From Ferrovaceae bacterium (GTDB taxonomy: Bacteria; Pseudomonadota; Gammaproteobacteria; Burkholderiales; Ferrovaceae): a stretch of DNA of 64,000 nt. The notes under the pieces are model-generated. The model was not told the origin of the DNA, did no database searches, and saw only the letters and a program-made list of their open reading frames with translations. Both the position numbers and the translations under genes were made by a program. Shown here one piece after another: positions 28,344-34,136 of the stretch. Location: the NCBI GenBank assembly GCA_027311025.1, contig DAICZS010000007.1, forward strand, positions 1 through 64,000. The letters are read 5' to 3'. The number at the start of each line of letters is the position of its first letter. The stretch's first letter is position 1.

Positions 28344-29996
28344 ATGCTGCGTGCCCTGAGTATCCGTAATTTTGTCATCGTCGAGCATCTGGACCTGGAG
28401 TTCGATGCAGGCTTTACCGTGCTGACCGGCGAAACCGGCGCTGGAAAATCCATTCTGATCGAAGCGTTGTCCCTTGCCCTGGGTGCACGAGCCGAACCAG
28501 GAATTGTACGCGCTGGTGCCGAGCGGGCTGAAGTGGTTGCTGAATTCCTGGTGCCCCAGGAGGGCCCCGCTGGTCAATGGTTGCTGGAAAACGAACTCTG
28601 GTCCGATGACGTCTGTGTATTGCGTCGTATCCTGGACAAGTCCGGAAAGTCTCGTGCATTTATCAATGGTTCCAGTGTGCCGGTGCAACAACTCAAAACC
28701 CTGTCGGAATGGCTGCTCGACATTCACGGGCAGCATGCCCACCAATCCCTGCAAAAGGCATCCACCCAACGTGCGCTGCTCGATGCCTTTGCCGGTACGA
28801 CGGCGTTGGCGCAATCAGTGCGGTCGGCCTACAACCAATGGCAATCAGCCAGGGATCAATGGGAAGAATGGAGCAGCCAGTCCGAGGCGCTGCTGGAAGA
28901 AAAGGCACGCCTGCAGGACGAGGTGCGTGAACTTCGTGCGCTGGACCTGACACCAGAAACCTGGCAGGCCCTGCAGACAGATCAAACCCGCCTTGCCCAC
29001 TCGGCCAGCTTGCAGGAGGGGGCCCGATTTGCACTGGAGACATTGTCTGAAGCCGAGGATGCCGTTCGCGGCAAGCTCGATGCAGTCGGGGCCCTGCTGT
29101 CCGGGCTCGTGACCTTTGATCCGGTACTGCAATCCAGTGTGGAACTGATCGAATCTGCAGGAATCCAGCTGGATGAAGCCGTCCACGAATTGCGTCGTTA
29201 TGCCATGGGCATCGAAGTGGATGATGCGGGATTGCAGCAGCTGGAATCCCGCATGGAAACCATCCTGGCCGTGGCGCGTCGTCACCGGCTCAAGCCCGAG
29301 CAACTGCCCGAGCGCCTGGTGCAATCCGCAGCGCGTCTGGAGGCGTTGCAATCCAAAAATTCGGGCGAGGCGTTGGAACAGGCCATGCACGCTGCGCGCG
29401 AGGTGTTTTATAACCAGGCCCAGCTGTTGTCACAGCAGCGCGCCCAGGCTGCAAAACAACTCAGTCAGACGATTACGGCCACCATGGCCGATCTGGCCAT
29501 GGGGAATGGCGTATTTGAAATTGCCCTGGCTCCTCTGGAACGAGCCAACGCATCAGGTTTGGATGAAGTGGAGTTTCGGGTGGCGGCGCATGTTTCCCAG
29601 ACGCCAGAATCCCTTGCCCGCGTGGCCTCCGGGGGTGAGCTTTCTCGCATCAGCCTGGCCATCCAGACCGCCCTCTCCACGGTCTCAGCCGTGCCCACGC
29701 TGATTTTCGACGAGGTGGATACCGGCATTGGTGGGCGCGTGGCCGAAATCGTCGGGCGACTGCTGGAAGACCTGGGCCAACGGCATCAGGTGCTTTGCGT
29801 CACGCACCTGCCGCAAGTGGCCGCCAGAGGCCAGCAGCATCTCTCCGTTACCAAGACAGAACATGCGGCCGGCGTCAACAGCACCATTGCGCGTCTGGAT
29901 GACGAGGCGCGCGTTGAAGAACTGGCGCGCATGCTGGGTGGTGTCACCATCACGCCGACGACGCGTCGGCATGCGGCCGAAATGCTGAATCACTGA
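28344..29996 (+). CDS. recN: DNA repair protein RecN
   Basis: MLRALSIRNFVIVEHLDLEFDAGFTVLTGETGAGKSILIEAL; ASGGELSRISLAIQ; FDEVDTGIGGRVAE. Confidence 0.96.
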   Translation: MLRALSIRNFVIVEHLDLEFDAGFTVLTGETGAGKSILIEALSLALGARAEPGIVRAGAERAEVVAEFLVPQEGPAGQWLLENELWSDDVCVLRRILDKSGKSRAFINGSSVPVQQLKTLSEWLLDIHGQHAHQSLQKASTQRALLDAFAGTTALAQSVRSAYNQWQSARDQWEEWSSQSEALLEEKARLQDEVRELRALDLTPETWQALQTDQTRLAHSASLQEGARFALETLSEAEDAVRGKLDAVGALLSGLVTFDPVLQSSVELIESAGIQLDEAVHELRRYAMGIEVDDAGLQQLESRMETILAVARRHRLKPEQLPERLVQSAARLEALQSKNSGEALEQAMHAAREVFYNQAQLLSQQRAQAAKQLSQTITATMADLAMGNGVFEIALAPLERANASGLDEVEFRVAAHVSQTPESLARVASGGELSRISLAIQTALSTVSAVPTLIFDEVDTGIGGRVAEIVGRLLEDLGQRHQVLCVTHLPQVAARGQQHLSVTKTEHAAGVNSTIARLDDEARVEELARMLGGVTITPTTRRHAAEMLNH

Positions 29997-31863
29997 AACG
30001 CTCCGGGGCAATGGCCCGGATCAGATCCCTTTCCAGCGGTAGTGGCATCCCTGCCAGCTCAGCAGCAATGAGCTCCGCCGCCATGCTGCTCCAGATCAGG
30101 CCGCGCGATCCCATGCCCATGGTGGCGTACAAGCCTTCCTGCAAACCCAGTGCGCCCACGAGCGGCATTCGGTCGCGACACACGCTGCGAAACCCGACAC
30201 GATCCACGGTGGTGAGGGGGTCGGATGCAACGCCTGGGCTGAGTCGGTGAAGTCGTTCCAGGTTTTCCAGGGTGCTGGCCAGGCGGGGGGCGGATTCCAG
30301 ATCACCATCATAGGTGGCGCCGACGCACAGACCTCCTGCCAGTCCTGGAATGACATAGCCATCCTGACAGAGCACCGGTGTTTGGGGTGGAAAGGGATCG
30401 TTTGCAACCTGGGTAATCTGTCCGCGAAACAGCGTGATGGGGAGTTCGGCTGTTTGCGGCAGTGACTGGGCATGGGCCCCCAGGGCCAGAATCAGGATGG
30501 GTGCTTGTGCCAGGACCTGTCCGCGCGCATCAAAAATCCGCCAGTTCCCAGCCTTTTCGATGCGGCTTACGTCGGTATTCCAGTGACTTCGAATCTGCGC
30601 GGCGCCTGCCCGGAGAGCCGCTGCGCACAGGCTGCCCGGGTCCAGCCAGCCACCCTGCTGGAAAAGCCATCCGCCCCATTGCCCGGCAATACCGCACAAG
30701 GCCAGTACTTCTTGGGATTCCAGAAAACGCACATAGTCATGGGGGTAGCCGTAATGCGCGAGGGTGTCGCGCTGCACTGCGGACTGCTCCTCATCCTGGG
30801 CCAGGACCAGGACTCCGCTGAGCTTGTGGCGGATGGGGCCAGACCTGGCTTGTAAGCGATGCAGGGTGTGCAGGGTCTGAAAAAAAGCAGCACGCGAGAG
30901 CCGTGCAGCCAGATTGTCGTCGCGTGAGAGCACCGGGCGCAGGATTCCGGCAGGATTGCCCGAAGCTTCCCTGGCAGGCCCGTCGTGACGGTCGAACAGG
31001 TCGACTTGCCACCCCTGTTGCGCCAGGCGTTCTGCCATCAGGCATCCGGCAATGCCGGCGCCGACGATCATGGCATGCCGCTGCGTGATGGGATGGAGAT
31101 GGTTGCGTGCCAAGACTGGATTGCGCGCAGTCGAGACCATGCGACTGAAAGCCGCCTCGGGAATCTTGTCGAATCGTGCTTCCAGGCGTTCCCGCTTGCG
31201 CCCGAAACCGGGGAGGCGCCGTACCGTAAATCCATGGGCCTCGAGGCGCCGACGCACGGCACCGGCCACGCACCAGGTGGCCAAAGTGCCCTGGTAAGCC
31301 ATCTGGCGAGCCACGTGACGGATCACCCAGTCATCCCACATCTGGGGGTTCTTGTCCGGTGAAAAACCATCGAGGAACAGGGCGTCTGCAGCCATGGCCA
31401 GCTGCGGCAAGGTTTCCTGGATGTCTCCCAGGATCAGCGTGAGTGTGACGCGGCCCTCATCAAACCTGAGCTGATGAAAACCAGGCACCAGTGGGGGCCA
31501 GGCGGCAAGCAGGGCCCCGGACAGGGCGGCGAGGGTTGCAAAGGGGGCGAGGGCCAGTGCCAGGTCGTTGCGATTCAAGGGGAATTTTTCAAGCGAGACG
31601 AAGTGCAGTCGGGCCTCAGGGTTGGGCACCGTGTGGCGCCATGCGCTCCAGGTCACCAGAAAATTCAGTCCAATGCCGAACCCGGTTTCCAGAATCTGGA
31701 AATCGGGGCGATTCAGCCAGCGTTCCGGCAATGCATTGCCGCTGAGAAAAACGCTCGTGCACTGGGCAATGCCACCGTCCGCTGAGTGGTACACATCATC
31801 GAAGGCCGGGGCGCGCAGAACGCCGTCCTCGAAGCGGATTTCTGCAGGGGTCATGGTCGTCAT
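29950..31863 (-). CDS. mnmC: Bifunctional tRNA 5-methylaminomethyl-2-thiouridine biosynthesis protein
   Basis: N-terminal methyltransferase (LDGFSPDKNPQMWD) and C-terminal FAD oxidoreductase (MIVGAGIAGCLMAERLAQQG). Start MTTMTPAEIRFEDG at 31863 preferred. Confidence 0.93.
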   Translation of the reverse strand: MTTMTPAEIRFEDGVLRAPAFDDVYHSADGGIAQCTSVFLSGNALPERWLNRPDFQILETGFGIGLNFLVTWSAWRHTVPNPEARLHFVSLEKFPLNRNDLALALAPFATLAALSGALLAAWPPLVPGFHQLRFDEGRVTLTLILGDIQETLPQLAMAADALFLDGFSPDKNPQMWDDWVIRHVARQMAYQGTLATWCVAGAVRRRLEAHGFTVRRLPGFGRKRERLEARFDKIPEAAFSRMVSTARNPVLARNHLHPITQRHAMIVGAGIAGCLMAERLAQQGWQVDLFDRHDGPAREASGNPAGILRPVLSRDDNLAARLSRAAFFQTLHTLHRLQARSGPIRHKLSGVLVLAQDEEQSAVQRDTLAHYGYPHDYVRFLESQEVLALCGIAGQWGGWLFQQGGWLDPGSLCAAALRAGAAQIRSHWNTDVSRIEKAGNWRIFDARGQVLAQAPILILALGAHAQSLPQTAELPITLFRGQITQVANDPFPPQTPVLCQDGYVIPGLAGGLCVGATYDGDLESAPRLASTLENLERLHRLSPGVASDPLTTVDRVGFRSVCRDRMPLVGALGLQEGLYATMGMGSRGLIWSSMAAELIAAELAGMPLPLERDLIRAIAPERFSDSAFRPHADASSA

Positions 31864-31925
31864 CCACGCATTGTACTGTCCGACAAGTTGCGCGGCATTC
31901 ATTTGTTTGATCGCTCGCAAGGCCT

Positions 31926-31954
31926 TTGCCGTCATTACAGTGGGCGGGCATAAA
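31926..31954 (+). promoter_or_regulatory. Possible sigma-70-type promoter for the 31987/32109 unit
   Basis: TTGCCG-N17-CATAAA (4/6 and 4/6 matches), ~33 nt upstream of the small ORF. Confidence 0.3.
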
Positions 31955-31986
31955 GGATTTTTTTCCTTGAACTCTTACGGGGTGCC

Positions 31987-32112
31987 ATGGTGGGTCTTGT
32001 TGCGCAAGCCTCCCATGATCAACAGGCAATACCCAATCGCCGGACGGCATGCTTCTCGCCGTCAGGCGGGTCATCGCAAGCCTCCGGTATTTTTTTGGAG
32101 GATGAGCGATGA
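31987..32112 (+). CDS. Putative small ORF (41 aa), ATGA-coupled to the ORF at 32109
   Basis: ATG...TGA, MVGLVAQASHDQQAIPNRRTACFSPSGGSSQASGIFLEDER; below the ORF-track length cutoff; stop overlaps the downstream start as ATGA. Confidence 0.3.
   Translation: MVGLVAQASHDQQAIPNRRTACFSPSGGSSQASGIFLEDER
32038..32068 (+). repeat. Imperfect inverted repeat / hairpin in the leader of ORF 32109
   Basis: cgcc-gg-acggc-atgcttctc-gccgt-ca-ggcg (9 paired bp with one 2-nt internal mismatch). Confidence 0.6.
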
Positions 32113-33152
32113 TTGCATTCGATCTGTTTCAAGGGTTGTTTCGAAGTGTGGTTTATCTGGGGGTGGTGTTACGCCACCATTGGGGTCGTAAGGTGACGCC
32201 AGAACGATGGACGGAGCAAATGGCGGCTGCTGAAGCCATTCACGCACCGTTGGCGCTTCCGGCGCCGGCGCCGGCAGAGTCCGAATCATCATTGGCAGCA
32301 CCGGAGTTATCGGCACCTCAGCACCTTGTCCCTGTGCCTGATGCCGATTATCTGGTGAGTCAAGTGCTGGTGAGATACGGTGAGGGTTTTAACGTGGTTT
32401 GTCATTTCTATCGGCGTGATTCGCGCGTGGTCCGTGCACTCTGGCTGGATTACAAAAGCCTTCAGCGTAAACATGGGGCTTATGTTGTTCGGCGCCTGCG
32501 CACTCGTGCAGGCCAACAGGTTGCGAGAGCCAGGGGTTCAGCTCGTGCGCAAGGCGTAACGCCAAGGCGTTGGGGCCGTATCGCATTACCTGACGAATTT
32601 CTGGAATTTGAATCGCTCCAGGATCTGCGGGTGATACGACTCATGGAGAAAACTCTGGCAGACGCGGGGGCGCTGATCGAAGAGGAAATTCCCGAAAACC
32701 TGCTCAACAAGCGGCCGTGGCGTCTTCTCCCTCCCTGTGCCGCACCAGAGCACGAGTTGACGGATTTGCAGAAGCGACGCAAGACCATCGAACGCTCCAT
32801 GGAGGAAATCCGGGCGGAAGATGCGGCCCGTAAGGTGCCGCTAGCCAGCCAGGACAAGCTGTATCCCAACATGATCAAGCCGCCAGTAGTCAGTTCACAT
32901 AGCGGTGTGCTACGCAAAACCGGTTATGTGGAGCGTACGGATCCGTCAGGCCGCAAGTACCGTACTTTTTTCGCGGAAGTGGAGGATGAGGTGCGGACTA
33001 TTCGGCATATCGGCGTGGATTTGCAACGCGCCCTGTTGCGTGAACAGATCAACATCGGAGATCGGGTGGAAGTGTTCAATATCGGACTGGTCCCGGTAGG
33101 TTCGGGCAAGTACAAAAAGAAGATATGGAGTGCCCGAAAATTGCCGGTGTAA
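32109..33152 (+). CDS. Hypothetical protein with C-terminal module resembling one found in conjugative-plasmid proteins
   Basis: 347 aa; SD ggagg 7 nt upstream of ATG; C-terminus YRTFFAEVEDEVRTIRHIGVDLQRALLREQINIGDRVEVFNIGLVPVGSGKYKKKIWSARKL. Confidence 0.75.
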   Translation: MIAFDLFQGLFRSVVYLGVVLRHHWGRKVTPERWTEQMAAAEAIHAPLALPAPAPAESESSLAAPELSAPQHLVPVPDADYLVSQVLVRYGEGFNVVCHFYRRDSRVVRALWLDYKSLQRKHGAYVVRRLRTRAGQQVARARGSARAQGVTPRRWGRIALPDEFLEFESLQDLRVIRLMEKTLADAGALIEEEIPENLLNKRPWRLLPPCAAPEHELTDLQKRRKTIERSMEEIRAEDAARKVPLASQDKLYPNMIKPPVVSSHSGVLRKTGYVERTDPSGRKYRTFFAEVEDEVRTIRHIGVDLQRALLREQINIGDRVEVFNIGLVPVGSGKYKKKIWSARKLPV

Positions 33153-33159
33153 TTGAACC

Positions 33160-33188
33160 ACGGGGGTGTCAACCCCCGTTTTTTTTTT
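33160..33188 (+). terminator. Intrinsic terminator after ORF 32109
   Basis: acgggggt-gtca-acccccgt followed by a run of T (8-bp stem). Confidence 0.92.
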
Positions 33189-33233: not shown

Positions 33234-34136
33234 ATGAACTTCTTTTCCATTCTGATTGCACTGCTACTGGAACAGTATCGTACTGTTTCCGCTCAAGCCA
33301 AAGTCTTTGCTCTCTATGATCGTTATGCCAGCAGCCTGGATGACCTGCTCAATTCAGGCGAACGGCACCATGGCATAGCCGCCTGGATTCTTGCGGTCGT
33401 ACCCGTCCTGCTGGTTTTTGGCACGCTCAACGTCGTCGCGGGCTGGATGGGTGTGGGCCTGGGATGGGCCATTGATGTGCTGGTGCTGACCCTGGTGCTG
33501 GACTTCAGGGTGGTGCTGAATCGCCTGTCTACGTTACAAGGCGAGTTGCGCCATATGGAGCGCGAACAGGTCGCAGAGCGCCTGGGTTTTCCGGGCCCAA
33601 GCGCTCCGGCGCTTGCCGAAATGGTGGCTCGTGGCATCGAGCTTGCGCTCATCGACATCCATACCCACCTGCTGGCCGTATTGTTCTGGTATTGCGTGTT
33701 GCCCGGACCGACCGGAGCGTTGTTGTACTTGATGGCGATGCGTCTTAACCGCCTTTGGGGCTCGGACACGCAAACCGATTTCGGACATTTCTCCCGCACG
33801 GCATTTTACTGGCTGGACTGGATACCCCTAAGGCTCACTGCACTGGCCTTTGCCATCGTGGGTAATTTCGAGGATTCGCTGTTCTGCTGGCGCACCCAGG
33901 CTTCAGGCCATCGCGTCAGTCTACGCATTATCCTGGCCAGTGCTGCCGGGGCCCTCGGGATTCGTCTTGGCGACTCATCCACGCCCAATCGTGTTTACGG
34001 AGGGCTGGACCTGGGCGTGGGCGAAGCACCTGACATTGACCACCTGAGAAGTGCCGAAGGCATGATCTGGCGCACCCTGGTGTTGTGGCTATTGATTATT
34101 GCACTGATGACGATTGCCGCCATGGTGGGGGGTTAA
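33234..34136 (+). CDS. CobD/CbiB (AmpE-like) family integral membrane protein
   Basis: MNFFSILIALLLEQYRTV; RLTALAFAIVGNFEDSLFCWR; GDSSTPNRVYGGLDLGVGEAPDIDHLRSAEGMIWRTLVLW. Confidence 0.8.
   Translation: MNFFSILIALLLEQYRTVSAQAKVFALYDRYASSLDDLLNSGERHHGIAAWILAVVPVLLVFGTLNVVAGWMGVGLGWAIDVLVLTLVLDFRVVLNRLSTLQGELRHMEREQVAERLGFPGPSAPALAEMVARGIELALIDIHTHLLAVLFWYCVLPGPTGALLYLMAMRLNRLWGSDTQTDFGHFSRTAFYWLDWIPLRLTALAFAIVGNFEDSLFCWRTQASGHRVSLRIILASAAGALGIRLGDSSTPNRVYGGLDLGVGEAPDIDHLRSAEGMIWRTLVLWLLIIALMTIAAMVGG

Follow-up and report, generated by a model that had tools for sequence, protein, structure and literature searches.

A conjugation-associated module of about 90 residues, modelled only implicitly as the C terminus of the NCBIfam MobP1 relaxase family NF041450, recurs in proteins of conjugative plasmids (plasmid loci L081-L089). 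In LPD7 proteins (Pfam PF18821), TraC primases and Ti-type TraA it follows LPD7 towards the C terminus or sits between other domains. A second set of carriers is found on betaproteobacterial plasmids: proteins of Sulfuricystis pSTJ1 (WP_126448175.1), Azospira pAZI09 (WP_152091262.1), Paraburkholderia pBN2 (WP_095423558.1) and Caballeronia p3 (WP_244808818.1) are encoded directly upstream of ssb, as is a homologue in another sampled genome (G087). Conjugative DNA handling is known to employ OB folds that are not SSBs, namely PrgE of pCF10 and OrfL and OrfM of ICESt3 (PMC11137577, PMC12614216); these reside on mobile elements of Gram-positive bacteria, and their comparison with the protein described here concerns only the way they may work.

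The gene considered here, designated X, lies in a 64,000-nucleotide stretch (the window) of a Ferrovaceae bacterium (assembly GCA_027311025.1, contig DAICZS010000007.1). The Ferrovaceae are iron oxidisers of acid mine drainage. Like the four plasmid proteins listed above, which are of similar size, X ends in the module, and the Sulfuricystis protein also has an N-terminal helix that is clearly hydrophobic by measurement; unlike X, these relatives are on plasmids beside ssb and have a middle domain that does not align clearly with that of X.

Locus and C-terminal module of X

The initial annotation described a 347-residue product with a good Shine-Dalgarno sequence and no recognisable housekeeping function, followed by a strong terminator and flanked by mnmC and a CobD-like gene. 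All of these features are present (Table 1), yet 1.7 terminator-type sites are expected by chance in the stretch that holds the terminator. The downstream neighbour matches NCBIfam PRK07630 at E 3.7e-76, which is under the cut-off of that model, and Pfam CobD_Cbib at 2e-13. X itself has no family match in Pfam, NCBIfam, PHROGs or, by sequence, the PDB, and the first three of these assign it to no housekeeping family. The C-terminal sequence quoted in the annotation is exactly that found at the end of X. The GC3 of X is 0.57 as compared with 0.65-0.74 in all tested neighbours, a low value despite the gene being ancient in the family.

Table 1. Features of the X locus (positions in the window)
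Feature	Position	Strand	Description
mnmC, divergent neighbour of X	29950..31935	-	Fixed synteny
5' leader element	31944..31991	+	GCA/UGC closing stem, AAGGA/UCCUU hairpin, CYC/GGG hairpin
3' leader switch, whole element (model R1), 77 nt	32035..32111	+	Covariance model
P1 hairpin, state A	32038..32068	+	32038-32048 pairs with 32058-32068
P3 terminator-like hairpin, state T	32039..32096	+	GCCGGA (32039-32044) with TCCGGT (32083-32088), then T7 (32090-32096)
P2 hairpin over Shine-Dalgarno and start codon, state A	32072..32111	+	CATCGC..CCTCC with GGAGG..GCGATG
Shine-Dalgarno GGAGG	32097..32101	+	7-nt spacer to X start
X ORF	32109..33152	+	347 aa, ATG start; no Pfam, NCBIfam or PHROGs family
N-terminal hydrophobic helix, residues 2-25	32112..32183	+	Membrane-anchor or amphipathic (AlphaFold; hydropathy)
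Middle α/β domain, residues ~81-200	32349..32708	+	No known family (AlphaFold; family alignment)
C-terminal module, predicted OB fold, residues 258-347	32880..33149	+	Homologous to relaxase/primase/LPD7 protein modules
Rho-independent terminator 3' of X	33160..33188	+	Stem 33160-33179, then T9
CobD/CbiB-AmpE-like gene, downstream neighbour of X	33234..34136	+	Fixed synteny

From a residue pattern, the initial annotation had traced the C terminus to relaxases and primases of conjugative plasmids, and reciprocal profile searches bear this out: judged by profile comparison, the module of X is homologous to that of conjugative-plasmid relaxases, TraC primases and LPD7 proteins. A direct tblastn search of plasmids with X gave no match, and the link emerged only through the pSTJ1 protein of Sulfuricystis multivorans, itself a distant match in the search of relatives. 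Used as a tblastn query, this bridge protein has matches on plasmids of Azospira, Paraburkholderia, Caballeronia and Cupriavidus and in LPD7 proteins from plasmids of Xanthomonas and Pseudomonas; the module of an LPD7 protein in turn has matches in at least 5,000 plasmid records, with annotations that include LPD7, TraC primase, Ti-type TraA, MobP1 relaxase and Toprim. A profile was built from eleven plasmid modules, with Ferrovaceae and bridge sequences left out and reversed decoys as the control. It scored the best X protein at 18.6 bits and that of the window at 16.0, as compared with 9.5 for the best reversed decoy; most X proteins lie above the decoys, and a few, mostly from genus g2, are near or below the best decoy. 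The reverse search with a Ferrovaceae profile recovered plasmid proteins with E-values of 3e-12 to 2e-3, the first decoy following at 0.34, and hhalign aligned the module of X with the plasmid modules at a probability of 96.2% and E 2.6e-9, a similarity that the initial annotation had allowed might prove absent. When the window's own genome was searched with a Xanthomonas module, X was the sole match (E 0.004). The module corresponds to model positions ~235-321 of NF041450, a region matched by 13 of 14 plasmid modules; the initial annotation was unsure of a Pfam name, and Pfam has no model for it.

Although the C-terminal module of MobP1 is homologous to that of X by profile, X itself does not reach NF041450, and no relaxase domain (MobA/VirD2, MobH; HUH) was matched in it by Pfam or NCBIfam. 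It also differs from the LPD7, TraC and TraA proteins in lacking LPD7 (no match to PF18821), Toprim, helicase and BID domains. In the sequence RHIGVDL, X retains the Gly-Val-Asp-Leu of the plasmid-typical WGVDL motif and has lost its Trp, which is absent from the ssb-adjacent plasmid relatives too; the HG.APY part with its Tyr, typical of plasmid copies, is not conserved in X. A phage origin of the module was rejected, since the phage collection gave only two matches, one in the record of a Salmonella strain, and IMG/VR none.

Predicted fold and functional alternatives

The full-length AlphaFold model consists of an N-terminal helix, a low-confidence linker, the α/β middle domain and the C-terminal module. 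Hydropathy of the N-terminal helix is 1.5 in X and 0.4-2.0 in its relatives, being weakly hydrophobic in several members, and it is uncertain that this helix is a true transmembrane span. The middle domain includes strands at residues 85-114 and helices at 115-133 and 173-192, with pLDDT ~75-87 for most of it, and has a mean identity of 72% in the family alignment, in which the module is the best-conserved part (88%). Modelled alone with AlphaFold2, the module has a pLDDT of 86.6, a pTM of 0.71 and a β1-β2-β3-α-β4-β5 topology, and its best PDB neighbours in Foldseek are nearly all OB folds: mitochondrial and bacterial SSB, PriB, RPA-related proteins, RecO and ExoVII. With modest E-values of 0.004-0.1 for these neighbours, an OB fold with a predicted five-stranded barrel is indicated and an SSB-like role is only predicted. 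OB folds can also bind RNA, proteins or sugars. The module is basic, with a pI of 9.4-10.6 across members, and has a conserved KKKIW-type end.

X has no match to the SSB/PriB family (Pfam PF00436). A true SSB is encoded elsewhere in the window's genome (C127), and SSB was found in 18 of 18 good-quality genomes, those without X included, which rules out X as a replacement of SSB; X would be an accessory to it. The position of the plasmid relatives next to ssb points to a part in the metabolism of single-stranded DNA on large plasmids. AAA ATPase, DUF3150 and VWA genes accompany them at several of these loci. Module genes lie directly 5' of ssb at L067 (10385-19203), L068 (3384-10927), L066 (3512-4849), L063 (3514-6766) and L093 (7879-9270), and several of these plasmid or plasmid-like genes stand in a block with AAA+, DUF3150 and VWA genes, a conserved cluster for DNA metabolism, as yet without a name, on large plasmids of Betaproteobacteria. 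Our preferred reading, to which we give a probability of about 0.55, is that X is a domesticated, plasmid-derived, membrane-proximal accessory protein under RNA-switch control, with an OB fold that is predicted to bind single-stranded nucleic acid.

In an unlikely alternative, the module serves protein-protein contact or recognition for secretion in place of nucleic-acid binding, and X uses it to dock a partner at the membrane. It draws on the capacity of OB folds to bind proteins and on the company that the module keeps: in TraA the module lies ahead of the BID domain, and its carriers include relaxases, TraC primases and LPD7 proteins, known or potential substrates of type IV secretion. Because the plasmid carriers include proteins that pass through type IV secretion, TraC1 and SogL being transferred during conjugation (PMC5512222), docking is the main rival for the module. 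The ssb-adjacent plasmid relatives, however, carry neither a relaxase nor a primase domain, and the strong basic charge and the KKKIW-type end also weigh against docking. It is distinctly improbable that X is a fixed chromosomal helper used by resident Ferrovaceae plasmids or ICEs for transfer or establishment. Its homology to plasmid DNA-transfer proteins would suit such a role, but no copy of the module besides X was found in the window's genome, and X is fixed family-wide under selection typical of core genes (see below). No match to a DUF3150/AAA/VWA partner was obtained in the 32 Ferrovaceae genomes, a result that also speaks against a helper, although the search control matched nowhere either.

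Leader RNA of X

The 5' flank of X is strikingly conserved and holds a leader of ~170 nt, a conserved, switch-like RNA that was missed by the initial annotation. The 5' element has an invariant GAACYCUU..GGGGUG core in genera g1, g2, g3, g6 and g8; 100% of its cells are paired in 16 sequences, with three compensatory pairs and 0 of 500 shuffles, uncorrected for relatedness. Its model (R2) did not detect it in genus g7 and found no strong copy elsewhere among 399 Burkholderiales genomes. The model of the 3' element (R1) matched strongly once per genome in 25 Ferrovaceae genomes, at the start of X, and otherwise gave chance-level matches only; there was no strong match in g4 and none in g5, which has X. 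In the g5 genome G008 (L037), X is present and the leader RNA is missing, which makes this genome a natural experiment on the importance of the leader. Neither model found a leader of this type at the ssb-adjacent plasmid relatives.

The 3' element can adopt two states, A and T, the P3 hairpin of the latter being mutually exclusive with both P1 and P2 of the former. For P1, 95.5% of cells are paired and the covariation score was reached by 0 of 500 shuffles; for P3, the corresponding values are 96.9% and 1 of 500, both uncorrected for relatedness. P3 shows A-U/G-C exchanges on both sides, CCGGA/UCCGG being replaced by CCAGA/UCUGG in g7. When the structures of P1, P3 and the 5' element were slid along the alignment as controls, paired cells dropped to 22-59%. 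The P2 hairpin formed in 22 of 22 folded sequences (z -2.0 to -6.7); its CCUCC pairs with the Shine-Dalgarno sequence, and the start codon is also paired, by the flanking arms, in g1, g3, g6 and g8. These arms vary in sequence between genera, with complementarity kept. In most sequences the fold of lowest energy is state A and state T is usually 1-12 kcal/mol higher, although in three sequences it equals or beats state A. State T, a GC-rich hairpin with a U-run behind it, leaves at least half of the Shine-Dalgarno sequence free in most sequences, with g6_G009 and g7_G027 as exceptions. Thus two exclusive helices, P1 and P3, covary on the sense strand, as looked for in a bistable leader, and P2 is added to them; from these patterns, the leader is apparently a switchable two-state RNA and a candidate regulatory RNA, the switching itself being what we infer.

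Exclusive structures, of which one is a terminator-like hairpin and one masks the Shine-Dalgarno sequence and start codon, are also characteristic of the expression platforms of riboswitches and attenuators. Unlike known switching leaders, that of X occurs at a single gene in a single bacterial family and has no match among the Rfam 15 covariance models, so it was rejected as a known Rfam family; its single copy, at X, likewise excludes a repetitive or regulon element. There is little chance that the conserved object is a protein-binding DNA operator or a REP-like palindrome and not a regulatory RNA. P1 is indeed GC-rich and palindromic and lies in an intergenic region common to the divergent mnmC, but the element occurs once per genome, at X only, and its pairing covers the Shine-Dalgarno sequence and, in several genera, the ATG. 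Moreover, all three elements contain G-U pairs, many in number, that the other strand would turn into A-C mismatches, which argues that the conserved object is an RNA of the X strand.

Inheritance in Ferrovaceae and proposed role

A whole-genome search of sampled relatives found full-length X in one family only, Ferrovaceae, besides distant C-terminal matches. By profile search it is present in 26 of 32 Ferrovaceae genomes and in seven of eight genera (g1, g2, g3, g5, g6, g7 and g8); two of the six genomes without it are incomplete (65-74%), and the other four all belong to genus g4. The order mnmC-X-cobD/ampE-like-rsgA is retained in nearly all readable Ferrovaceae loci, and in g3 the wider context differs, although X keeps both of its neighbours. 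The slot is cleanly empty in g4 (L105, L106 and L107), where the mnmC-cobD gap is ~120-330 bp and all other neighbours are retained. These g4 intergenic stretches look AT-rich. A Ferrovaceae tree was built from seven genes neighbouring X. In this tree g7, which has X, is basal and g4 lies within the family, with support of 96-100 for the relevant branches; the exact position of g4 is weak (support 44) and its branch is long. This tree places X at the root of the family, and its single loss, in g4, is likely though not certain.

The dN/dS of X is 0.08-0.15, within the range of mnmC, rsgA and recN, which indicates purifying selection at the level of core genes. No flanking repeats or tRNA were found at its edges, and X does not have the profile of mobile-element cargo (flanking repeats, a tRNA or integrase, a patchy distribution). 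X is a vertically inherited chromosomal gene of Ferrovaceae, old and under selection. The view of X in the initial annotation as an orphan, accessory-looking gene in a core stretch therefore does not stand: the mnmC-CobD interval, proposed there for comparison, is a fixed slot from which X is cleanly absent only in g4. Of the universal synteny with a known chromosomal function that was set against a mobile origin, the synteny is found and the known function is not. A recent accessory insertion, which framed that view, has the low GC3 and the clean g4 slot in its favour but is scarcely credible, being refuted by the distribution of X, in the same slot in all seven genera including the deepest branch, and by the tree, with repeats and tRNA absent as well. 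The suggestion in the same annotation of a domesticated mobile-element protein fares better. Since the nearest whole-protein relatives are the ssb-adjacent betaproteobacterial plasmid proteins, an anciently domesticated plasmid protein fits and is the most economical history; the direction from plasmid to chromosome is inferred, the opposite one being less probable.

In the preferred reading of X as a domesticated OB-fold accessory protein, it would descend from a plasmid DNA-processing protein. The hydrophobic N-terminal helix would hold it at the inner membrane face and lead into a lineage-specific α/β domain, and the basic C-terminal OB fold would bind or guide single-stranded nucleic acid alongside the cell's own SSB. 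The leader RNA would gate the synthesis of X: state A would hide the ribosome site and start codon, and state T, which is terminator-like, would free the ribosome site or end transcription early. As A masks and T may terminate, both states may be "off". The leader might be flipped by autogenous binding of X or by a ligand, and a putative feedback in which the OB fold of X binds the U-rich loop of this leader is attractive. It also runs against this reading that G008 keeps X without the leader and that genus g4 lives without X. More tentatively, at somewhat less than even odds, the leader may be a new bistable RNA class of one Ferrovaceae gene with a separate 5' sensor element (GCA-AAGGA-UCCUU-GAACYCUU-GGGG-UGC), controlling the domesticated OB-fold protein through autogenous binding or through a small ligand tied to acid, metal-rich life.

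The leader is a candidate class of regulatory RNA that Rfam lacks and, as a gene-specific covarying structure, offers a handle on what the cell senses when making X. X is a small, experimentally tractable protein from which to learn what the module does, and through it a conjugation-associated domain that Pfam does not model, although at least 5,000 plasmid records carry it, persists as a stable, selected chromosomal gene in one family.
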